NCBI RefSeq assembly: GCF_002104995.1
Contig: NW_024468264.1
Span: 282,516 to 346,515 of the forward strand
DNA length: 64,000 bases
Direction: 5' to 3'
Source: Linderina pennispora
Lineage: Eukaryota > Kickxellomycota > Kickxellomycetes > Kickxellales > Kickxellaceae
Both the position numbers and the translations under genes were made by a program. Positions 1 through 64,000 of the stretch are shown piece by piece. How positions within the stretch are numbered: position 1 is the stretch's first letter; the number at the start of each line of letters is the position of its first letter. The notes under the pieces are model-generated. The model worked only from the letters and a program-made list of their open reading frames with translations. It was not told the DNA's origin and ran no database searches.

Positions 1-279
1 TTACCTGACCAGATCCTGCGTATCCGTATCTTTGGCCGTGTGTTGCGTGTTTTGTGGGTGCGTGGCAACCACGTCGATGATACTTCATCAATAGCAGACT
101 CAGTATCAATGAACCGTACAGTGCAGAGTACAATTCCTCTGAGGCATGGGTGGCGGCGTAAGCGTCTGCATATTGAGCTGCTGTCTAAGGAGCAGGAGAA
201 GGTCGCGTGGGAGGAGTACCTGTTTTTGCGCGCGGTGCAGTACCAACTACTCAAGGAGCCAGACAATGTCATTCGATAA
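1..279 (+). CDS. 3' end of an unrecognised gene (partial)
   Basis: The reading frame is open from the first base of the window to a TGA-type stop at 277-279 and encodes the last 92 residues of a protein whose start lies outside. The C-terminus is basic then acidic (RRKR followed by an SKEQEKVAWEEY stretch) and could form a helix. I recognise no domain. The gene ends just before an AT-rich stretch, which fits a real 3' end, but a chance open frame is not excluded. Confidence 0.35.
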   Translation, partial: LPDQILRIRIFGRVLRVLWVRGNHVDDTSSIADSVSMNRTVQSTIPLRHGWRRKRLHIELLSKEQEKVAWEEYLFLRAVQYQLLKEPDNVIR

Positions 280-1238
280 CTTTTATCCCCATTCCATATA
301 TTCACTAGTTGCTAATTTATGTTTCTCTATGAATCAGTCTGCTTCCGACCTGTTCCATTTGTAGATCCATGTGTCTTACCCTCACGACTGACCAGCAGGA
401 ATGAAAGAAACTAAGAGTGAGGCTCATATAATGACATCTATTCCTCCAAAAGATGTTGCTGTACAGCTCTGTTGAGAACATTAAAGGCGTTTACTCATAA
501 TTCAACCTCTGAGCGCGCATCCAGAGTCTAGATACTTCACTTTTTGATTACTTTTATATACACCTAATATGCACCGTACGGAACAGCTGTTTGGATAAAA
601 CGCTAGCAGACAGGGGTCCTGCACTACACGTAGTTTACGCTGAGGACAATAGTCCAAGACTACACACTGGTTCGTAAAGCTGTTCTGAATGTGATTGTTA
701 GATTTCCGACATGTATCTGTTGATTCAATCTGGTGTGTCTAGTTCGCCACTGATACCGCGCCTACATGTCGTATTGTTCATTTATTAGGATACCTGACGG
801 TTCTGAAGTATCTTTGCATTAATTGAATATCCATGAATCCTCCTGAAGCAGGTTACTATTTCTGGGGATCAGACAGCTGACGGGCCGATATCCGTGCCGC
901 TACAGAATCAGCTGTTACTGATGAGTATGCCAATACAGCCAGAAGCAGGCTGGAGCAATTCCACATATATATTCGAGCGCATGGTCAGTTGGAACAGTAT
1001 ACAGGCTATGGATAGAACCATTAGCGTCAATGGCCGGCAGCAGGTATGACAGCAAGGAATGTGGTGGTGGTGTTTCGAACAGGGGGCGTCGGCTCAGCAT
1101 TCCGAGCCGCGATTGATGGGAGTTAGCCGAGATGAGCCACTTTTATGACGAGCCGTCTTTTGGATTCCGTCACAGATACATTTTTTCCTCTTGTTCCAAT
1201 TATTTGACACGCATTTCTCGACACAATCGTACTGCAGC
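280..1238. other. intergenic, AT-rich
   Basis: About 960 bases with no convincing coding frame on either strand and no tRNA-like or repeat structure that I can see. It separates the partial gene from the cullin gene and should hold the cullin promoter. A cullin reading frame without ATG extends up to 1191, so an unseen first exon is possible. Confidence 0.4.
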
Positions 1239-3476
1239 ATGTGGGCTACAAAGAGACCCGGGCCACTAGCAACTGGTCCTCAGAAGAAACTTATACTCCA
1301 AGGGCTGAAAGCGATACCAGCGCTGCCAGTGGCATTCAAAGACGAGACATGGGTTCGACTACAGAGTGCAATACGCGCAATTCAGGCCAGCAAGCCTACA
1401 GCCCAAGGGTTTGAGGAGCTGTACCGGGACTGCGAGAATATGTGTCTGCACAAATTCGGCAGCGAGCTATACGCAAACCTGCAAGGTGAATGTCTCCTGT
1501 ATGCGCGCACGCAATTGTCGGAAATCAACAAGGAGCAGGACGAGACAGAGAACGGCACAGTGCTGACGGCGACCCGGCAATTCTGGACGCAGTACACGCA
1601 GCAGCTGGCAGTCATACGGTGCGTGTTTCTGTATCTGGACCGCACGTACGTGCTACAGACGGCCAACACGCCGTCGCTGTGGGCTATGGGTCTGGCGGTG
1701 GTGCGGCAGTGCCTGGAGGACTCGGGGATGGCGGTGCGTCTGGCGCGTCTGATTGTGCAGGAGATTGCGCGTGAACGCGATGGCGCGACAGTTGACCGCG
1801 CGATGTTGCGTGTACTGACGCAGATGCTGGTCGACCTCAATTTGTACTCGCAGTACCTGGTGCCGAGGCTCATTGAGGCTACGCGCGAGCACTATGAGCG
1901 CGAGAGCCGCCGGATGGTTGGCAGACTGGTGCCCGTGCAGCCTGCAGGCGCACAGAACCAGATGGACGTACCGCTGTACCTGGATCATGTAAAGCGCCGG
2001 CTGACAGAGGAGACAGATCGCACAGCTCAGTACCTGAGCGCCAGTACCAAGAGCACGCTGCTGGCAACGGCCGTGGGCGAGCTGATCGAAAAACACACAG
2101 ACCACCTGTTGGCCACAAGCTTTGACGATATGCTGGCGCAGGATTGCGTAGCCGATCTGGGCAACCTTTACACGCTGCTGGAGTCGGTGGCTCGGCTGGA
2201 CATGCTCAAGCGACACTGGGCCGGGTACATCAAAAGGACAGGCATGGCGCTGGTGCAGCAGCCAGACTTGGACGTGGCTTTGGTCACCGAGCTGCTGGCG
2301 CTGAAGCAGCGCCTGGACAACGTGCTTGCGCAGTCATTTGCTGGCAGCGAGTCGCTGGCACATGCGCTGCGTGAGGCCTTCGAGGAGTTCATCAATGCGC
2401 GACGCAACAGGCCGACGCAGCTGATAGCCAAGTTTGTCGACCAGTGCATGCGTACCGGCAGCCGGATGGCGCCTGACCAGGCCCTGGATGCACTGCTAGA
2501 CCGGGTCATGGTGCTGTTCCGGTTCATCCAGGGCAAGGACATGTTCGAGGCCTTCTACAAGCGTGACCTGGCCAAGCGTCTGTTGACAAACAAGAGCGCG
2601 TCGAAGGATGCCGAGCGCGCTATGCTGCAGCGGCTCAAGCAAGAGTGCGGTGCTGGGTTCACAAACAAGCTCGAGGGCATGTTCCGCGACATCGAGGCGT
2701 CGGAGGACTTGGCGGGCAAGTTTGCCGGCAGTGCATCGGCAGCAGGCATCGGCAGCATGTCGTTCCATGCCAGCATTCTGGCCCATGCATTCTGGCCCAC
2801 CTACGAGCCCATGGATCTTGTCGTGCCCAAGGCTGCCGAGGAAGCGCAGAATGCGTTCACCGAGTTCTATGGCGAGACGCACCAGGGGCGCAACCTGCAA
2901 TGGCAGCCGATGCTGGGCACATGTCTGCTCAAAGTTGAATTCGATGAGGGCCCCAAGGAGCTAGCGCTCTCGGTGGTGCAGGGCACAGTGCTGTGTCTGT
3001 TCGGCGAAGCCGACGAGCTGTCGTATACCGAGATCCAGCAGAACACCAGTCTGGACGATGCCACGCTGCAGCGCACACTGCAGTCGCTGGCCTGTGGCAA
3101 GACGCGTGTCCTCACCAAAGAGCCAAAGGGGAAGAACGTAGACAGCACAGACAGGTTTATCTTCAACAAGGCGTTTTCCAGTCCGCAGGCTCGCATCAAG
3201 ATCAGCCAGATCCAGACCAAGGGAGCCGAGAAGGAGACCAAGGATACCGAGGAGAGGGTCCAGTTTGACCGCATGTACAAGGTCGACGCTGCGATCGTAC
3301 GCATCATGAAGGCGCGCCGCACGCTGAGCTACACCGACCTGCTGACCGAGATCATGGCTCAGCTCAAGTTCAACGCATCGGCCACCGAGCTCAAGAAGCG
3401 CATCGACTCGCTGCTTGAGCGCGAGTTCCTGGAGCGTGACGACAACGACCAGTCGGTCTACAAGTATGTGGCATAA
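1239..3476 (+). CDS. CUL4: cullin-4-type ubiquitin ligase scaffold
   Basis: Encodes 745 residues from the first in-frame ATG (1239); the open frame extends to 1191 without another ATG. Cullins are the rigid backbone of RING ubiquitin ligases, and CUL4 pairs with DDB1 adaptors and Rbx1 in the nucleus to act in DNA damage and replication licensing. The N-terminal cullin repeats carry FLDRTYVLQ. The cullin-homology block follows, with KPAELIAK-like and FRFIQGKDMFEAFYKRDLAKRLL motifs. It then has LQRTLQSLACGKTRVL and the C-terminal winged helix with the neddylation lysine in AAIVRIMKARRTL, ending in YKYVA like animal CUL4. The whole length aligns with the CUL4 family and no frame break is seen. 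It is transcribed away from the minus-strand TBC gene's 3' end, which lies 51 bases downstream. Confidence 0.92.
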   Translation: MWATKRPGPLATGPQKKLILQGLKAIPALPVAFKDETWVRLQSAIRAIQASKPTAQGFEELYRDCENMCLHKFGSELYANLQGECLLYARTQLSEINKEQDETENGTVLTATRQFWTQYTQQLAVIRCVFLYLDRTYVLQTANTPSLWAMGLAVVRQCLEDSGMAVRLARLIVQEIARERDGATVDRAMLRVLTQMLVDLNLYSQYLVPRLIEATREHYERESRRMVGRLVPVQPAGAQNQMDVPLYLDHVKRRLTEETDRTAQYLSASTKSTLLATAVGELIEKHTDHLLATSFDDMLAQDCVADLGNLYTLLESVARLDMLKRHWAGYIKRTGMALVQQPDLDVALVTELLALKQRLDNVLAQSFAGSESLAHALREAFEEFINARRNRPTQLIAKFVDQCMRTGSRMAPDQALDALLDRVMVLFRFIQGKDMFEAFYKRDLAKRLLTNKSASKDAERAMLQRLKQECGAGFTNKLEGMFRDIEASEDLAGKFAGSASAAGIGSMSFHASILAHAFWPTYEPMDLVVPKAAEEAQNAFTEFYGETHQGRNLQWQPMLGTCLLKVEFDEGPKELALSVVQGTVLCLFGEADELSYTEIQQNTSLDDATLQRTLQSLACGKTRVLTKEPKGKNVDSTDRFIFNKAFSSPQARIKISQIQTKGAEKETKDTEERVQFDRMYKVDAAIVRIMKARRTLSYTDLLTEIMAQLKFNASATELKKRIDSLLEREFLERDDNDQSVYKYVA

Positions 3477-3527
3477 ATGCCTAATATAATTAACCTCTTG
3501 TGCCTATCAATTCACAAAATGAAACAG

Positions 3528-6125
3528 CTAGTCGGTTGCCGGACGGCCCTGGGCGAAGATGTTGTGTACGGCTTCAGTGATCTCGGGCAGCGAAGACCCT
3601 GTTGCAGCAGGGTTGTCTTGCTCTAGCTCCTTGCCCTTGCCCGCGTCGTTGACGAGCGGTGTGGTTTCGGCAGTGTTGGGTGCCACTGACTCCTTGTCCT
3701 CGTCCCAGTCGAACGAGATCAGCTGCACTTCCTTCTTGCCATCGCCACCGCTGGCGCTGCTGCTAGGCTGCGGGGAGCTGCTATCTTGCCCCTCGACATC
3801 CTGGGACGCTGCCTTAACAAACACGGCCAGTCCGTGCTCCCTGCGCTTCTGCTCGACAACAGCGACGCGATGCCGCACAATGTAGAAGCTGGTCTCGGCA
3901 CCCTTGAGAGCGTCGTTCAGGTCAATGGTCTCGCTCAGATCCTGCACGTACTTGAGAATATCCTCGGGCGACTCTAGATGATCCATGATGACATCGGCAT
4001 GGCGCTGCAGCACAGCCAGGGCAACGAACAGAACGAAGCGGTCGGTCAGGTAGTCCGTCCACAGCACCTCCCACAGACGCAGCACATCCTCGAAGCTGAA
4101 CTCGCGCTTGAACCAAATCAGTAGCCAGCGGTAGCAGCAGAACATGTTCTCCGCGTCGTACTTTGCCAGGTGTTTGTGCAGCGGCGGGTTGGCGATCTCC
4201 ACCAGCCGCGATATCGTGGTGAGCTCGTCTTGCATGCCGCTCTGGTCGCGCAGAAAGTGCGGGCGCATGCGCTGCATAAAGTGGGTGAACGCCCAGAAGG
4301 TCGTCGGCTCGTCCTGGAATACCGAATAAATCGGCGCCAGCAGATCCGACATGCCCTGCACGTAGCCAAGCTCTGCCTCGTCGTAGTAGTGGAACGTCAT
4401 CAGAATATCCTTCATCTGCTCCAGACTGGCGCTGGATCCAGGTAGACCGGTCTCGGCCAGATTCGACTCATCGTTGCCACCAAACGTCGAGTCCGTGGCG
4501 AACAGCGGCAGGGCACGGTCGGTGCGAAGGACATCCTTCTCGATACGGCTCTGCTGCTCGATATAGTCCTCGCCGTTCTTCAGCTGTGGGTCGCTCAGCC
4601 ATTTGTCTTTCAGAATCCAGTATTGGTCAGCATTGGCCTTGTCGATGCTGGTGCGGTCCGCCTCGGTGCTCGACCAGGGGTGGATCTTCAGCAGGTACTT
4701 CCAGACCACAGGCCGGATATCCTCCTCGACGCCGCCCGCAAAAATTGCGCGCCGCACAGTATCCGGGTCGGCCACCAGTCGACGCTCGGGGTTCGACGGA
4801 CCACCCTCAGTTGCCTCAAAGAAGCCAAACCACTGCTCCGCCGACAGCGCCGGCCTGGTGCGGATCGGCGCAGGAAGATTGGCGGTCTTGTCGGTGCTGA
4901 CCACCTGGAAGCGGCCCAGGTCGCCCGACTCGGCCACCCATTCCTCCCAGATGCTGTGCGGTTGCACGTCTGTGCTGGCGCCACCCGCAGCCTTCTGCGA
5001 CTCGCGTTGGCCATCCTCATGCTGCTGCTGGATTATATGCTGTGCTGCCCACTTTGCGAGATAGATTCGAGCGCCCTCGTACTCCTTGGCCAGGCTGCCG
5101 GCAGCGCTAGCTCTGTCTCCGCCCAGTGACGGCGGCATGTAAGGAAGCACCTGGCGCGCCACTGGCGTCTCGACCAGGGAAGTAGCGGCGTCACGCACAG
5201 TGCGGGTAATACGCGCGAACCGCTCCAGGATACCCCACTGCAGCTCCTTAACTTGGCCCATCAGCGGATCCATGTTTCCATGCAATACCGAGTCCAACAC
5301 ATCGGGCGTGCTACTGCCGCGCTCTTGCGACGCATCTCCGTGCGCTGCAGTCCGAGCTTCTGATGTCTGTCCTCCGTCGGCAGTAACATTACTGTCGGTA
5401 GACCGTCTGGGAAGCACGCCTGAGGCACTGGGCGACGTTGCCGTGCTGAGCGTCACATGTGGCGACTTGGACTGCCGCATGATGTACAGATTCGGGTCGC
5501 TTGGCGCCCGTGCGATATCGATGGCGTGTGCCAGCCATACCAGTAGCTCGTCGCCACCCCAGTGCCGCGTCATGCCAAGCAGCGTGCTAGCACTCTCGTC
5601 GTCATGGAACCAAAGCGGCGCCAGCGAGCTGCCGTCACGCAGATTAAGTATCACTGACCCGTACCACTGTGTCAGCGACGGCGGGTGGATCAAAAGCGAG
5701 GCAAGCTCGCCAACAGGCTTGCAAAAAGCGTAGCTGGAGATTGACGTCATCTGCGGCCCTTGGCTTAGTGGGCCAGTTGATACCAGCACAGCGCTGTCGT
5801 CGTCCGACATCATGCTCAGAGATACGGGCTTGACAGGGTCCTTGGCTGTGGGTGCAAAGTTCGGGCACAGCTCAACTTGCACGTAGCTCTCGCGGTCGTG
5901 CTCGCTCAGCAGGGCTTCAGGTGTCCATGCAATGTAGTACTGGCTGTCGGGTCCTTGTACGATGCAGACGAATCCAGACACGCGGTCTTTCTTGTGCGCT
6001 GACCGGTAGATATATACTTTGCTCTTGGCATACACGAGCTGTACGCTCGACACTTCGCCCACGATGCAGTAGTCCGAGAACTCGGACACCGTCAAGGTCT
6101 TGTCTTCGACTGGTCCTCCACCCAT
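3528..6125 (-). CDS. GYP7: TBC-domain Rab GTPase-activating protein, Gyp7/TBC1D15 type
   Basis: Encodes 865 residues in one exon. The N-terminal half is a divergent PH-like lipid or Rab-binding region plus a Ser-rich linker. The TBC domain occupies roughly residues 440-760. It contains GGVEEDIRPVVWKYLL, the arginine-finger segment IEKDVLRTDR and the glutamine-finger segment YVQGMSDL. The CCYRWLLIWFKREFSF block and RLWEVLWT follow. These two fingers supply the catalytic Arg and Gln that speed GTP hydrolysis on Ypt7/Rab7-type GTPases at vacuolar or endosomal membranes. The order of motifs matches Gyp7/TBC1D15/17. The acidic tail is family-typical. The ATG at 6125 is the first in frame. The gene is tail-to-tail with CUL4. 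Confidence 0.88.
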   Translation of the reverse strand: MGGGPVEDKTLTVSEFSDYCIVGEVSSVQLVYAKSKVYIYRSAHKKDRVSGFVCIVQGPDSQYYIAWTPEALLSEHDRESYVQVELCPNFAPTAKDPVKPVSLSMMSDDDSAVLVSTGPLSQGPQMTSISSYAFCKPVGELASLLIHPPSLTQWYGSVILNLRDGSSLAPLWFHDDESASTLLGMTRHWGGDELLVWLAHAIDIARAPSDPNLYIMRQSKSPHVTLSTATSPSASGVLPRRSTDSNVTADGGQTSEARTAAHGDASQERGSSTPDVLDSVLHGNMDPLMGQVKELQWGILERFARITRTVRDAATSLVETPVARQVLPYMPPSLGGDRASAAGSLAKEYEGARIYLAKWAAQHIIQQQHEDGQRESQKAAGGASTDVQPHSIWEEWVAESGDLGRFQVVSTDKTANLPAPIRTRPALSAEQWFGFFEATEGGPSNPERRLVADPDTVRRAIFAGGVEEDIRPVVWKYLLKIHPWSSTEADRTSIDKANADQYWILKDKWLSDPQLKNGEDYIEQQSRIEKDVLRTDRALPLFATDSTFGGNDESNLAETGLPGSSASLEQMKDILMTFHYYDEAELGYVQGMSDLLAPIYSVFQDEPTTFWAFTHFMQRMRPHFLRDQSGMQDELTTISRLVEIANPPLHKHLAKYDAENMFCCYRWLLIWFKREFSFEDVLRLWEVLWTDYLTDRFVLFVALAVLQRHADVIMDHLESPEDILKYVQDLSETIDLNDALKGAETSFYIVRHRVAVVEQKRREHGLAVFVKAASQDVEGQDSSSPQPSSSASGGDGKKEVQLISFDWDEDKESVAPNTAETTPLVNDAGKGKELEQDNPAATGSSLPEITEAVHNIFAQGRPATD

Positions 6126-44469: not shown

Positions 44470-45510
44470 CTACATACGGTGGAGAAGGTAGTCCATCAGT
44501 ACAGCAACCACGCTGACGCTCAGGCTGTTGCCGAGCAGCCGGTACCGCTGCTTGATGGTGCTGGAGTCTGGAAAGGCAAACTCTTGCGGGAATCCCATCA
44601 GGTTGGCGATTTCGCGGGCGGTGAAATACCGCGTATTCTGCACCGTCATCGGGTCCTTGCCAACCACGCCTTCAAGCTGCAGGATCGATCCAGTGCCCTC
44701 TGCGTAGTTCTTGTATCCCTTGGTGAAGCAGCATGTGCGGCTACTGTCTTTGGTCACCACGTCATACACCCACGCGTACTTTTCGAGCGTGCGGCCGCTG
44801 ATCCGGTGCAATTCCAGCGTCTGCTCATCCAGCGGCTCCAAGAACTCCTTGACCTTGCGCACCTTGTCGTGGTTCCACACGGCTTTGTCAAAGTCAACCC
44901 GTCCATCGACATCAGCCGCCGGCTGGATCAGATCGGCGCCAGGCACGTCGTGCAAAAAGCTGGGCTCAAACTGCTCGTCCTCGGCGCACTCGCGCGGCTC
45001 GGCACAGCGCTTGGCCAGCAGGTAGTACCGGGTGCGCGAGTTTGGATAGCAAAGCTGCAGCGGGTTCAGCAGGTACTCTTCAAACCTGTACCCCAGCCGT
45101 GTGAGCTGCCGGAGCAGGATCGCGCGCGTATCCGACTTTTCGAACCCAGCGACGTTCTCGACCAGCAGGTAGGTGGGCTTGCGCTGCACGCGCTCCAGCA
45201 GCTCGATGATGAACAGGAAGCTTTTGGCGCGCGCGTCTTCGGACCCCTTCTGCAGGCCCTGGCGGGTGTACGGCTGGCAGGGCGGCGACATGGTCCAGAG
45301 CTCGCACTTCAGGCCCTCGAACAGCGACATAGGCAGGGACTCGATACTGCGCTGCATGATGCGGATCTCGGGGAAGTTGTGCTTGTAGACGTCGTTGGCG
45401 ACCGGGTTGATGTCGAAGGCGCGCACCACCTCGCTGTCGATGCTGGCCGCCTTGAGCGCATAGTGCATGCCGCCGATGCCGCTGTAGAACTCTGCTACCC
45501 TGAGAGGCAT
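44470..45510 (-). CDS. TRDMT1: DNMT2/TRDMT1 tRNA cytosine-5 methyltransferase
   Basis: Encodes 346 residues from ATG 45510 (MPLRVAEFYSGIGGMHYAL). A GTG-started extension to 45543 is not used because it crosses a 10-base poly-A tract. Motif I FYSGIGG binds SAM. Motif IV SPPCQPYTRQG holds the catalytic Cys. Motif VI is ENVAGFEKS, VIII NSRTRYYLLAKR, CFTKGYKNYAEGTGS is the DNMT2 CFT-type signature, and motifs IX-X are FTAREIANLMGFP and RYRLLGNSLSV. DNMT2 methylates C38 of tRNA-Asp despite its DNA methyltransferase fold. No DNA-binding N-terminal domain is present. It is convergent with ThrRS (66 bases apart). Confidence 0.93.
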   Translation of the reverse strand: MPLRVAEFYSGIGGMHYALKAASIDSEVVRAFDINPVANDVYKHNFPEIRIMQRSIESLPMSLFEGLKCELWTMSPPCQPYTRQGLQKGSEDARAKSFLFIIELLERVQRKPTYLLVENVAGFEKSDTRAILLRQLTRLGYRFEEYLLNPLQLCYPNSRTRYYLLAKRCAEPRECAEDEQFEPSFLHDVPGADLIQPAADVDGRVDFDKAVWNHDKVRKVKEFLEPLDEQTLELHRISGRTLEKYAWVYDVVTKDSSRTCCFTKGYKNYAEGTGSILQLEGVVGKDPMTVQNTRYFTAREIANLMGFPQEFAFPDSSTIKQRYRLLGNSLSVSVVAVLMDYLLHRM

Positions 45511-45578
45511 TGCTTTTTTTTTTGGGAGGTCTGAAAATTGCACAAAAGGAATGAGAAGAAAGAAGGAAAAATTTTACA

Positions 45579-58713: not shown

Positions 58714-59642
58714 TCATCCACTGGAAAGACAATCGGGGGTGCCATATGGAAATACGAGGGTTCTGTCGGTTGAGGCATCGGCCGCCATCGGATTGGGCAC
58801 AGGGAACTGCTGATTCCAATAAATCGGCCTGGAGAGCATGTAGTTGCCTCTGGTCAACGTGCAGCGCATCTGTCGTTTCCTGTACAGCCTTCCCCATCGT
58901 ATCAGCAGTCCCAGAAATTGCATTGTCCGACATCCCACCTTAGGTTCCGGTCGTCTGTAAGGATGCGAGCTTTGTCTGGCTTTCTTCCGTGCAGGCTTGG
59001 CAGCAACCTTACCACTGCCTTTTTGCGACCGATCAACGAAAAACGCCCCATCGTCTTTGACGATAATTCGTCGGTCCCGCTTGTTGAGCTTAAAGTATAG
59101 CCCGCAACAATTGCAGACAGAGTTCAGGCTGATACCATGTCGCCGCCATGTCGACGAAACACGCGCATTACAGATCGAGCACACCTTGAATAGATTGCCA
59201 TACTCATCGCATTTCGGCAGTGAAGCAGCACGCTCTTCGAAACCTTGTAACTCCCTCATATCAGCTGGACTCAACGGCCTGCTTGAAGGGTCGATGCATG
59301 GCAGGCATTCCATACCACCCTTCAACCGGATCTTGCATGTGTGATATCCCTTGATTTGCGCATTCAGTGGAGGTACACTGCGTGTTGGCCGCTAAGCGAT
59401 AAGCCTCCAGTAGCCCGATGAGGTATTGGTCGGGGACACGAGAAAATGCAGGTGGAATATATGGGAACGGCACATTTGGCTTTATCAACTCCGCCGTCAA
59501 AAGTTGTGGATGATTGGGTCGGAAATGGCTTTCGCTTAATATCAGTGATAGCGGTTGCTAATAGGTCTCCACCCTTGCTGCACTTGGCTGGGTAAAGAGG
59601 GGCTGACGAGCAACCCGTGGTATCGCTGGTGATTGCTGCACA
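58714..59642 (-). CDS. GATA-type zinc-finger transcription factor, frame-disrupted
   Basis: The finger CSICNARVSSTWRRHGIS followed by VCNCC has the C-X2-C-X18-C-X2-C spacing of type IVb GATA factors. It is followed by the usual basic region (LNKRDRR and KPARKKARQ). Its last loop reads CNCCG instead of the common CNACG. The upstream part runs in two frames (59500-59330, then 59360-58714) joined by one base fewer near 59355. A further segment (59642-59560, LFTQPSAARVETY or the overlapping MCSNHQ frame) probably supplies the N-terminus. The tail after the finger has no domain. Such factors bind (A/T)GATA sites; the target pathway is unknown. Confidence 0.7.
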
Positions 59643-61027: not shown

Positions 61028-61374
61028 CTACAACTTAGACTGTTGCTGTTTGGTTGGCTGTATGCTTGTATTCACTCTGAACCCCTTCAATGGCTTCTGA
61101 CAAGTAGTATGTCTCCAAGGAGCAACGACATAAAAATCATTCAGTGCTTGAAAAGAACATCCCAGCTTCTCAGCTGGAGTCATCAGCTCAGCCTCTGGAA
61201 CACAACGTTGACGGCATAATCTTTCACCTATATATAAGATTTTATAGTCCAAAAAGTGTCCGACCGTCCGCTAGAAATTATTTAATTGGTTAAAAAAAAC
61301 TCTTAAGCTTCAACACGGGTTTGAGTGACTTGCTCTGTAAACTCCTTTTGATCTTGTGCGGCATCTGACCTCAT
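61028..61374 (-). CDS. unrecognised small protein, divergent from the Fanzor gene
   Basis: Proposed exon 1 is 61315-61374 (MRSDAAQDQKEFTEQVTQTR). A 44-base intron 61271-61314 (donor GTTGAA, acceptor TTTCTAG) leads to exon 2 61028-61270 (RTVGHFLDYKILYIGERLCR ... QQQSKL). The product is 100 residues with several Cys and a basic tail. The join is in frame and the acceptor fits, but the intron is short and the donor weak. A further open piece upstream (61378-61544, containing DAIEVIRPTDNESSSC) is cut off by stops. The start lies 457 bases from the Fanzor ATG, on the opposite strand. Function is unknown. Confidence 0.35.
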
Positions 61375-61830
61375 CGGTGAAACCAGGGTGACAAGTTGTT
61401 ATTGTAGTGGTCATAGGTCTCCACTGGATATCTCCATTGGTTCAGCACAAGAGCTGCTCTCATTGTCGGTCGGCCTGATAACTTCTATGGCGTCATCATG
61501 GTGGTCATCACCGGCTGCGCAACACCCTTAGGATATTCATTCATGAGCACCTATTGAATAAGGCCATATAGCTCTTCTGGTGGTTATGCAATATTTGTGG
61601 GTTTATTTTATAAATTAATTTGTCTTATGAACATGTGTAAGCGGTAGTATTTGGGTCACAACGGACCCAGTATGTATAGACTGATTCAAGAGACTATATC
61701 AGTGCTAAGGGCCCCAAGAACCATGCAAGCCAGATAATTTTTAATAAAAAGTTCTTAATGCTATGCACACGCAATACAGCAAAACTGAACAGCATCATTT
61801 CTCTTCTTACTTGCCTATTGAATTTCTCAA
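61375..61830. other. AT-rich region upstream of the Fanzor gene
   Basis: About 455 bases that must hold the Fanzor promoter and, if the gene sits in a transposon, possibly its left end. I looked for a terminal inverted repeat or target-site duplication, but the matching right end lies outside the window, so none can be shown. Confidence 0.35.
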
Positions 61831-64000
61831 ATGAATATTACCCGCAGCACTACTGTCATAAAGACATCACTTGGTGGTATTGGCTTCCGTGATTCTATGT
61901 TGCCCCGCCTAGAGCAATTTGTACACAGCGTCAATATCATCAAAGAGCATACATACATGCTTGCACGATGGATATTACTCCATCAACTAGCTGACGATGA
62001 TGCCTTTGACCCTGCAATATTTGTGAAAAAGGGGTTTTTTTCGTTCCATTTATTTATTTATTTATCGCAACCTGAAGGCGAAGACTGTCATATCTGCCGA
62101 GGATTTCGTCAACCGGAAGGACAGGTCAGAACTGTCGAGCGCAGATTTCGGTGATGTAGTTAGATATCATATTTATGATTATCTATTACATAATGGCGAT
62201 ATCGAGCTACATGGCGTACGTGAAATGAATCAGGTAGCGACATACGTGGATACCGAGCTGATGACAGCATACAAGAACAACATTGTGTTGCACTATGGCA
62301 GTTGCCTACAGAGGATTCTGGCCAAATTGATTGACATTCGCAGCCGCAAAAACACACTGCACAGTGCAATGGGCAATGTGTCCAAGGCTGAGTTAAATAA
62401 CGCATGTCAAGTGTATATTTATACACCTGCACAGAAGCTCCGCCAATGCCAGCTTATTGAGAATGAGCAGCTTGGCAAGTCTCCCCCCAATGCTTGCCTC
62501 TGCGGACATCATGGATCCCAGGCCATGTGCGCTTAGACAAGCAAATAATCAAGCAGGTGTTTATTTCGAAAACACGCGAGGAGGTTACCAAGATCAACGC
62601 AGCAAAGAGGGCAGCAACAGAGGCAAGGAAAGCAGCAGAAAAAAGCGAAAAATTGGCCAAGAAGGCTGCACGCGAAGCAGCGAAGATGCCATCGGATGCA
62701 ACAGAGGCCACTGCAGCAACTGCAGCAGTAGCGGCTGATTCACTTGCTGCTGCATCGGCGGCAGCAGCAGACACTGTTGCAGCACTTAACAATGCATATG
62801 CACCAGCACCCCCAGTCTGTGCACACGACCCGGTCCAAGGGATCATACAATCTGTGTGGGATGTGTGGGGCCGGGTCGCAGATCTAACATCGAAGCCATT
62901 TAAGGCGCATGGTGATAGAAAATTCCACGGAATGGCGACAACAGATGGTGTAACGATATGCATTTTGTTACAAGACAAGGTACCTAAGGCTGGTGCTGCA
63001 GGAGGCAATGCTGCGGGAGGCAATGCTACAGGCGATGCTGTGGGAGGCGATGCTACAGGCGATGCTGTGGGAGGCGATGCTACAGGCGATGTTGCAGGAG
63101 GTGATGCTGTGGGAGGCAGTACTATAGCTGACTGTCGCTATATCCACCAGATCCCACAGCCAGAGCTGCAGAATCTGAAAGGCCGCTGTGTATTCATCGA
63201 TCCAGGTCGGGGTGATTTGCTATACATGATGCACGAAAATAGCAGCAATGGGAAAGAGGGTGAGAGAATGCTCTACCGCTACACACGGCAGCAGCGCAAT
63301 AAGGAGCTCAAGCTGCGCCACTATGACAGGATTCGTCGGGCTACAAAGGATCAAGTCCCAGAAGATGCTGTCCGCAGAGCAGAGGCAGAGCTTTCCAAGC
63401 ACTGCTGCCGGACCCTTAGCCCAGCAAAATTCCGTGCCTACGTTGCTGCCCGTGCATCTGTGCGGTGTGTCCTAGCACCATTTTTATGCCAACACGATGA
63501 CAGCGCGAAGGCTACTAGAGCAGCAGCCCACTAAGTCAAACAAGCAGCATCAGAGGCGCTGGAAGGCCCATCCGGGTGTCGGGACCAGTCCCAAGGTGTA
63601 CCCGCTTCACCGCAAGCTGCGCCTTGATTCATTCATGAACCAGGCCCGTGCAGACCACAGGCTTGCCGCAAAACTCCGGAGCAAGTTTTGGTCCAGACCC
63701 AGTGCTGATCATGGGCAATTGGAGTGCGCCGATGGCCCGACACCATGCGCCGATCCGTGGCAAGGGATGGCGCGACAAGTTCAAACACCATGGCTTTGAA
63801 GTCTATCTGATCGACGAATTCCGGACATCGTCGGTGTGCCCGTTCTGCTGCGATAAGTCACTGCAGACATTCCGGCATGTTCCCAATCCGCGGCCCTACC
63901 AGAGATCGAAGAACCCAACTGTGAAGTGCCATGGCCTTCTCCGCTGTACAAGCGAGTCATGTAAGCGGGCCATGGCACAATACAGGCGGCCTATTCGTCA
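61831..64000 (+). CDS. Fanzor (eukaryotic TnpB-like RNA-guided DNA endonuclease), partial, frame-disrupted
   Basis: Fanzors are transposon-borne relatives of TnpB and Cas12 that use an RNA guide to cut DNA. The gene starts at ATG 61831 (MNITRSTTVIKTSLGGIGFR) and is still open at base 64000, giving at least 720 residues. Five frame segments join at homopolymers: T7 62035-62041, C6 62483-62488, T5 63481-63485 and T4 63686-63689. The N-terminal helical part is followed by the family block PLRTSWIPGHVRLD, an Ala/Lys-rich insert (62600-62790), KFHGMATTDGVTICIL and a Gly-rich minisatellite insert. RuvC-I is CVFIDPGRGDLLYMM (catalytic Asp codon 63199-63201), followed by RYTRQQRNKELKLRHYDRI. Next come LHRKLRLDSFMNQARAD, LIMGNWSAPMARHHAPIRGK and RuvC-II VYLIDEFRTSS (Glu codon 63816-63818). 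The zinc ribbon is CPFC with RCTSESC. RuvC-III lies beyond the window, as would a 3' omega-RNA-like guide. Confidence 0.88.
62600..62790 (+). repeat. Ala/Lys-rich low-complexity insert in the Fanzor gene
   Basis: GCA/GCN-rich coding stretch encoding an alanine-rich region. A first half with many Lys and Glu (such as KAAEKSEKLAKKAAREAAK) turns into an almost pure Ala/Ser/Thr half. It is likely helical or disordered and lies between the PLRTSWIPGH block and the domain before RuvC-I. Confidence 0.8.
63001..63120 (+). repeat. 27-bp minisatellite in the Fanzor gene
   Basis: Tandem units of 27 bases (two near-perfect copies from 63031, flanked by degenerate copies) encode GDAVGGDAT-type repeats. 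All units keep the frame. The array sits about 80 bases before the RuvC-I motif. Confidence 0.88.

Follow-up and report, generated by a model that had tools for sequence, protein, structure and literature searches.

A gene for an RNA-guided nuclease of the Fanzor type in a fungal genome raises two questions, namely to what kind of mobile element it belongs and what the nuclease does for that element. In bacterial IS200/IS605 elements, a single-strand (HUH) transposase, TnpA, is combined with an RNA-guided nuclease, TnpB, which takes its guide RNA from the 3' end. A parallel between TnpA/TnpB and Helitrons has been drawn in a 2023 Nature paper, the accessible part of which calls the biological role of Fanzor unknown (PMC10432273), and Helitrons are named among the hosts of Fanzor1 in the accessible part of another report (PMC10711439). 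The window analyzed here, a stretch of 64,000 nt of Linderina DNA corresponding to bases 282516-346515 of contig C68, ends in such a gene, and its sister copies elsewhere in the assembly were used to define the element, its partner and its insertion sites.

The window copy of the Fanzor1 gene

A first-pass annotation had assigned the end of the window to the Fanzor family by five motifs, RuvC-I, NWSAPM, RuvC-II, CPFC and C-x4-C. All of them are present in the order claimed, and their coordinates have been read from the sequence together with those of the surrounding element:

61220..64000, plus strand: the first 2,781 bp, out of about 3,360, of the Fanzor-carrying Helitron element, by similarity to sister copy L011
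61220..61295, plus strand: 5' terminus of the element, host A followed by TCTTTCACCTATATATAAG..., an end of ~75 bp in common with the Rep/helicase Helitron
61831..63999, plus strand: Fanzor1 gene, decayed, with the start codon at 61831, the frame broken repeatedly and the 3' end missing (tblastn with the L011 protein; list of open reading frames)
62441..62445, plus strand: junction of a deletion of ~172 nt relative to the sister copies (alignment to L011, also to L019)
63193..63225, plus strand: RuvC-I FIDPGRGDLLY (read; the sister copy aligns to LMDPGRRDLLY of PpFz1)
63717..63734, plus strand: NWSAPM box (read; the sister copy aligns to NWSAPN of PpFz1)
63807..63833, plus strand: RuvC-II LIDEFRTSS (read; the same string occurs in PpFz1)
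63837..63962, plus strand: C4 zinc ribbon, CPFC at 63837-63848 and C-x4-C (CTSESC) at 63945-63962 (read; weak match to Pfam PF07282, E=0.0045, under the cut-off)

The boundaries of the window element were inferred with the help of flanked sister copies, which place its start at 61220, right after a host A. The gene had been ascribed to a mobile element in an AT-rich part of the window; the element is a 3.36-kb unit with Helitron ends whose window part begins well before 61831, and the GC content of 0.43-0.48 at 56-62 kb agrees with the proposed setting, as does the fungal host. The idea of a single open gene spanning 61831-64000 has to be given up. The window element is about 97% identical to L011 over element bases 1-1231 and 1404-2977, and the intact sister protein aligns to it by tblastn in six pieces distributed over three frames; relative to L011, the window copy has suffered the ~172-nt deletion, five 1-nt indels within coding sequence, one close to where the alignment stops, and a 15-nt in-frame deletion. 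From its sequence, the window copy is a pseudogene and dead, although the family has intact members. The window copy lacks RuvC-III, a stop codon and the 3' end of the element because the assembled contig stops at its base 346515, which is window base 64000, and the missing parts are therefore no argument against membership in the family. That nothing more than an ordinary dead transposon fragment lies at the end of this contig, as the broken and cut-off state of the copy might suggest, is quite improbable, as such a description holds for the window copy only, intact sisters and their pairing with a Rep/helicase unit being found in the same genome. Overall, the window copy is probably best explained as a decayed non-autonomous Helitron that encoded only a Fanzor1 RNA-guided nuclease.

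The Fanzor1 family in the genome

The last 120 residues of the window copy were searched in all six frames against the assembly (26.17 Mb, 222 contigs), which yielded 150 scored matches from 294 candidates, some of these matches being pieces of a single copy or lying at contig ends (loci L003-L006, for instance, belong to the same copies as L010-L013). The best non-self matches are 94-97% identical to the query, and many matches fall at 90-97%. Of the 150 matches listed, 14 lie within an open frame that reaches 798 aa or more. In several sister copies, frames of 860-894 aa run through RuvC-III (SRLLNRDLAAVLNF), which reads NRDLAAVLN and had been expected from the first pass, to a stop codon, and Ala-rich and Gly/Asp-rich linkers precede RuvC-I. 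A Pfam search returned only a sub-threshold TNB match. The family assignment comes from a phmmer comparison of the intact 873-aa L011 protein with PDB chains, which retrieved the solved Fanzor1 structures PpFz1 (E=8.2e-84), SpuFz1 (E=6.1e-36) and GtFz1 (E=2.9e-6), with RuvC-I, -II and -III of L011 aligned in the two top structures, PpFz1 and SpuFz1; the identity proposed by the first pass is thereby borne out. The Fanzor1 motif given in the accessible part of PMC3627910, D-X(125,275)-[TS]-[TS]-X-X-[C4]-X(5,50)-RD, fits L011 as well, with D524, TSS from residue 732, then CPFC and CTSESC and a further 17 residues to RD; the RD of the window copy would fall past the end of the contig. The catalytic triad D-E-D and the C4 ribbon are intact in all seven copies that passed the full-length filter, and the intact sister copies (860-876 aa) quite probably encode an active RNA-guided nuclease, as far as sequence can tell.

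A database query with the whole protein returned no relatives, its Ala/Gly-rich parts having perhaps filled the candidate list; residues 640-825 succeeded, with 120 relatives at E<=1e-3 from 260 candidates. Their hosts are Coemansia, Dichotomocladium, Pilaira, Mucor, Rhizopus, Parasitella and other early-diverging fungi, and no relative was found in a scan of viral contigs. A partial tree of 46 of the 120 database relatives and three own copies places the lineage near Dichotomocladium and some Coemansia copies, with support of 88-91 only; the rows P0055, P0060, P0061, P0064, P0092, P0095 and P0099 in this tree are called Coemansia by default, and these labels are meaningless. Five Coemansia proteins (P0026, P0101, P0102, P0103 and P0113) match the C-terminal part of Fanzor despite other, partly housekeeping, Pfam domains or names, which we read as the outcome of insertion into genes or of faulty gene models.

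Ends and insertion sites of the element

Alignment of flanked copies reveals sharp element ends 3.36 kb apart, which answers the call for transposon ends made in the first pass. The left end is TCTTTACCTATATATAAGATTTTATAG..., preceded by a host A in 15 of the 18 copies examined; of the three exceptions, L015 and L037 are unreadable and L013 has a G because it follows a Rep/helicase unit. The right end is ...GAGCTCGCATCGCGAGC, followed by 8-9 nt and CTAG and then by TA. The last four bases are CTAG at 25 and CTGG at 2 of 27 loci (23 distinct copies), with TA behind the end at all 27, and a subterminal hairpin, GCTCGC-ATC-GCGAGC, lies 8-9 nt ahead of CTRR. The exact 3'-end pattern occurs 106 times in the genome, against 0 for a reversed-pattern control, and TA follows in 104 of the 106 cases, the two exceptions being TT and AA. 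To judge from these counts, about a hundred copies or remnants of the element are present in the genome. No target duplication was seen at the ends of the flanked copies. The unit thus combines all that defines a canonical Helitron, namely 5'-TC, CTRR-3', a subterminal hairpin and A/T insertion without duplication, apart from the Rep/helicase, which is supplied by a tandem partner with the same 5' end, the Fanzor unit itself having none. On this sequence evidence, Fanzor1 is almost certainly carried in a Helitron.

The 3' hairpin and the lack of target duplications would also fit a TnpB-like IS200/IS605 or IS607 element. Such an element is hardly credible here, given the 5'-TC and CTRR-3' ends with the hairpin 8-9 nt before CTRR, a 5' end in common with a unit coding for PF14214 and PIF1, and the ORF list for the Fanzor unit of L037, whose coding strand has no second frame of at least 150 aa. 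An IS200/IS605 origin was accordingly rejected, both the ends and the partner of the Fanzor element being those of a Helitron, and the same observations dispose of an IS607 origin and of a Fanzor2-type element. Extra TCTTTA units in variable number stand at the left ends of L011, L014, L015, L019, L020, L022, L027, L037 and L038, while the 3' end is constant.

Pairing with a Rep/helicase unit

Matches to PF14214 (Helitron_like_N) are found at 13 places in the genome, and six of these loci form one Rep/helicase (RepHel) family. The RepHel unit in L037 extends from oriented base 18 to 5580, its ORFs contain PF14214 and PIF1, and an HAH (HUH-type) motif is readable. The 5' end of RepHel was read in L037 and L038, where it is 96% identical to that of the Fanzor element along 99 bp and 90 bp, respectively; the other fetched RepHel pieces begin inside the unit. 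The 3' end in L037 consists of the hairpin GCTTGC-ATC-GCAAGC and CTAG and occurs eight times in the genome within 2 mismatches. Directly behind it, the 5' end of a Fanzor element is found in all seven junctions read (L013, L021, L037, L038, L040, L041 and L042), with different first Fanzor bases in L021, L037 and L038 and only the first 51 bp kept in L041. The eighth RepHel 3' end (C23:6463) is paired by spacing only, a Fanzor 3' end following 3,376 bp further on, at a distance of one element length, so that among the eight occurrences none lacks a Fanzor unit behind it. Fanzor-type 3' ends, with 106 exact occurrences, far outnumber these eight RepHel 3' ends.

The common 5' end and the tandem arrangement make it very likely that the Fanzor element is mobilized by this RepHel. 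For the Helitron Helraiser, read-through of the 3' hairpin has been reported in the accessible text of PMC4778049; by analogy, RepHel read-through of the first hairpin would account for the RepHel-Fanzor composite.

Two further observations concern Helitron-type genes. At C212:571000-596400, which comprises L039 and L013, a RepHel unit seems to be split in two; the pieces stand about 13 kb apart, with other DNA between them, and their ends overlap by ~22 bp (RepHel positions 4410-4432). The contig of the window carries another Helitron-type gene (L035, C68:198243-198650), which has an open frame of 1989 aa and did not align to the RepHel family.

Selection on the nuclease gene

For a gene that is merely carried along, dN/dS is expected to move toward 1. 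The sample consists of the seven loci in which one open frame includes both DLAAVLN and an exact N-terminal motif, further long frames having been left out. Their dN/dS is 0.30 overall, with 0.21 before the linkers and 0.24 in the RuvC/TNB part, and rises to 0.52 for the Ala/Gly-rich linkers and to 0.44 for the C-terminal tail. These ratios indicate that Fanzor is under purifying selection. The C-terminal tail of the intact copies evolves much faster than the rest of the gene (dS 0.19, p-distance 0.089).

The alternative that Fanzor is a passenger, captured by a Helitron and spread by RepHel recognition of the ends while its protein is useless to the element, draws on the known capture of gene fragments by Helitrons (PMC4778049, in its accessible part) and on the fact that most Fanzor matches are not full-length, only the 14 of the 150 listed having the long frame mentioned above. 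We consider it improbable in view of the dN/dS of 0.30, which was obtained from seven intact copies only and is at its lowest in the N-terminal part and in RuvC/TNB, of the excess of 106 exact Fanzor-type over eight RepHel 3' ends, and of the Fanzor unit behind every one of the latter, once by spacing.

A candidate guide RNA at the 3' end

The terminal block of the element can be folded into an 8-bp stem (GACACGUU/GACGUGUC) followed by the 6-bp Helitron hairpin. Compared with shuffled sequences, the 3' 168 nt do not fold significantly better (z=-1.38; 19 of 200 shuffles as good). Pairing is preserved in 326 of the 334 cells of 25 distinct rows, with one double change; covariation is nearly nil because the copies are so alike. 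In 15 of the fetched copies, the mean difference is 0.024 in the last 104 non-coding nt versus 0.030 in the RuvC coding part, and reaches 0.077 at the start of the 3' UTR, 0.089 in the C-terminal tail and 0.14 at the 5' terminus, the most variable part. The RNA of PpFz1 is described, in the accessible part of PMC11423790, as 75 nt long with one SL2 before the guide, a 7-bp SL1 being present in all three Fz1 studied. The last ~104 nt of the element are put forward as a candidate guide-RNA scaffold, their likeness to the PpFz1 RNA being suggestive only. The needs of Helitron transposition might by themselves be reason enough for the terminal block to be conserved.

Target sites and a possible role of the nuclease

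PpFz1 cleaves beside a 5'-ATN motif according to the accessible part of PMC11423790, and by analogy the insertion context A/TA (the slash marks the insertion point) fits this motif. Whether the TA belonged to the host before insertion is unsettled: among five diverged relatives of the L016 site, three have TA, one CA and one TG to the right of the insertion point, and the empty relative of the L022 site reads AA.

The following mechanism would connect these observations. RepHel would move the Fanzor element by rolling-circle transposition into A/T sites, either alone or, upon read-through of the RepHel 3' hairpin, jointly with its partner. Transcription of the conserved ~100 nt at the 3' end would give a scaffold composed of stem-loop 1 and of the Helitron terminal hairpin acting as stem-loop 2, and the host DNA immediately past the CTAG end would become the guide; with a guide that begins behind the TA, an empty site would be expected to show ATA followed by the guide sequence. 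The nuclease would then cut beside the AT(A) motif at insertion sites that are unoccupied, be it on the allele, the sister or the homologue, and cutting would favor copying-in of the element and hence its retention and spread. By analogy, the cutting of empty sites may be what Fanzor offers to its element, a proposal that we hold tentatively and with somewhat less than even confidence. The full version, a eukaryotic counterpart of TnpA/TnpB in which the Helitron target A/TA doubles as the Fanzor motif and each insertion programs the nuclease against its own unoccupied allele, is rather unlikely as it stands; if it were true, unoccupied sites would survive only when altered.

Second copies of seven insertion sites were searched with joined flanks, and unoccupied ones were found at two of them, L011 and L022, both altered. 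The second copy of the L011 site, on C24, has no element and lacks 39 bp across the insertion point at a 5-bp repeat, GTCAC; the right edge of the deletion is 17-22 nt into the right flank, and 363 of the 371 other positions are identical. At the L022 site, the empty relative on C112 reads A/AA and not A/TA, the first base on the right being A instead of T; 164 of 168 aligned positions are identical, and only 9 of these, the whole of the common left flank, lie to the left of the insertion. Of the other sites, L010 is occupied in both copies, the second copy of L020 holds an internally deleted element, L016 has diverged relatives only, and the joined-flank search found no second copy of L018. 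The second copy of L014 has 1.18 kb of other DNA, with ATT kept beside the would-be guide target; this persisting ATT is not predicted by the cutting model and does not fit it neatly. Two altered sites out of two are the outcome that empty-site cutting would give, in a number far too small to carry weight, and spontaneous deletion or chance substitution is a possible origin of both alterations.

Fanzor might help its element in some other way, as an RNA-guided regulator acting on the ends or on the Helitron circle, or by cutting competitors in trans. Action in trans with guides from many loci has been suggested by Saito et al. (PMC10432273, in its accessible part), and the many loci with different flanks described here would supply different guides; a role in binding only is at odds with the full catalytic triad kept in the seven filtered intact copies. 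We regard such other roles as possible but unlikely, and continue to favor, tentatively, the cutting of empty sites.

The flanks on several small contigs recur on large ones with about 94-98% identity (C162/C1:3.1M, C161/C1:1.09M, C140/C212:692k and C174/C24:75.5k), as would be seen if portions of two haplotypes, or recent duplications, had been retained in the assembly.

Relation to known systems

The first-pass view of the locus as a candidate for an undescribed system was too strong. Fanzors in Helitrons are already known from Chlamydomonas reinhardtii, where CRe-1, CRe-2 and CRe-3 were described as non-autonomous Helitron2 elements with Fanzor1 by Bao and Jurka in 2013 (PMC3627910). As far as the accessible part of that report goes, the likeness to the CRe elements extends to Fanzor1 as the sole gene of a non-autonomous Helitron, ends in common with other Helitrons and a high copy number. 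The Linderina element differs from them in its fungal host, in a single open frame instead of five or ten exons, in canonical TC/CTRR ends and A/T sites with no duplications seen, whereas the CRe elements follow TTTT and often show duplications, and in that the Fanzor unit also occurs joined to a RepHel unit.

Among proteins of solved structure, the closest is PpFz1 of Parasitella parasitica (PDB 9cf0-9cf3; PMC11423790), with E=8.2e-84 and aligned RuvC motifs. Further likenesses, as described in the accessible part of that source, are an ATN motif compatible with the A/TA context and a short RNA with a 7-bp SL1 and one SL2. A stretch of 27 residues in L011 corresponds to about 100 in PpFz1 (994-1096 in the numbering of the deposited chain), which are probably the cyclophilin-binding FRI domain of the latter. 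SpuFz1 of Spizellomyces punctatus (SPu-1; PMC3627910, PMC10432273, PMC11423790) is likewise a fungal Fanzor1, and its RNA-guided cleavage has been demonstrated. It matches at E=6.1e-36 only, and SPu-1, for which 17 full-length copies have been reported, is described in the accessible parts of these sources with terminal inverted repeats and putative TA duplications, and not as a Helitron. With Helraiser/Helibat1 (PMC4778049) the element shares 5'-TC, CTAG-3', a 3' hairpin (about 11 nt before the end in Helraiser), AT insertion and, possibly, 3' read-through; Helraiser is described without a Fanzor in the accessible part of this source. The combination of an HUH transposase with an RNA-guided nuclease guided from the 3' end recalls IS200/IS605, although here it is predicted from sequence, the transposase and nuclease belong to other families, and they are encoded in two separate tandem units.

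Among the papers listed from the open literature, none reports a Fanzor Helitron paired with an autonomous RepHel and none joins Fanzor and Linderina. What appears to be new is the fungal host of a Fanzor Helitron, the physical pairing with an autonomous Helitron and the agreement between target and motif. In this genome the family is abundant and includes intact nuclease genes, its Helitron partner lies next to it, a cutting motif and a guide can be predicted for every insertion, and some insertions have apparent second haplotypes, so the question whether Fanzor drives its Helitron into empty alleles becomes answerable here. More generally, the adjacency of Fanzor and RepHel opens to testing the contribution that such nucleases make to their transposons.

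Other genes in the window

The window also encodes a GPCR-like gene, which gave 73% identity to Linderina pennispora (Kickxellales) in a database comparison. The segment 27626-33062 contains what we take to be the RNA polymerase II large subunit, with a long run of YSPTSPS repeats. On the minus strand, the ORF at 44470-45573 resembles, presumably, a Dnmt2-type methyltransferase (GIGGMHYAL, PPCQPYTRQG), and an ORF with what we assume to be a GATA-type zinc finger (CSICN...CNCCG) lies at 58714-59391, about 2 kb upstream of the element.
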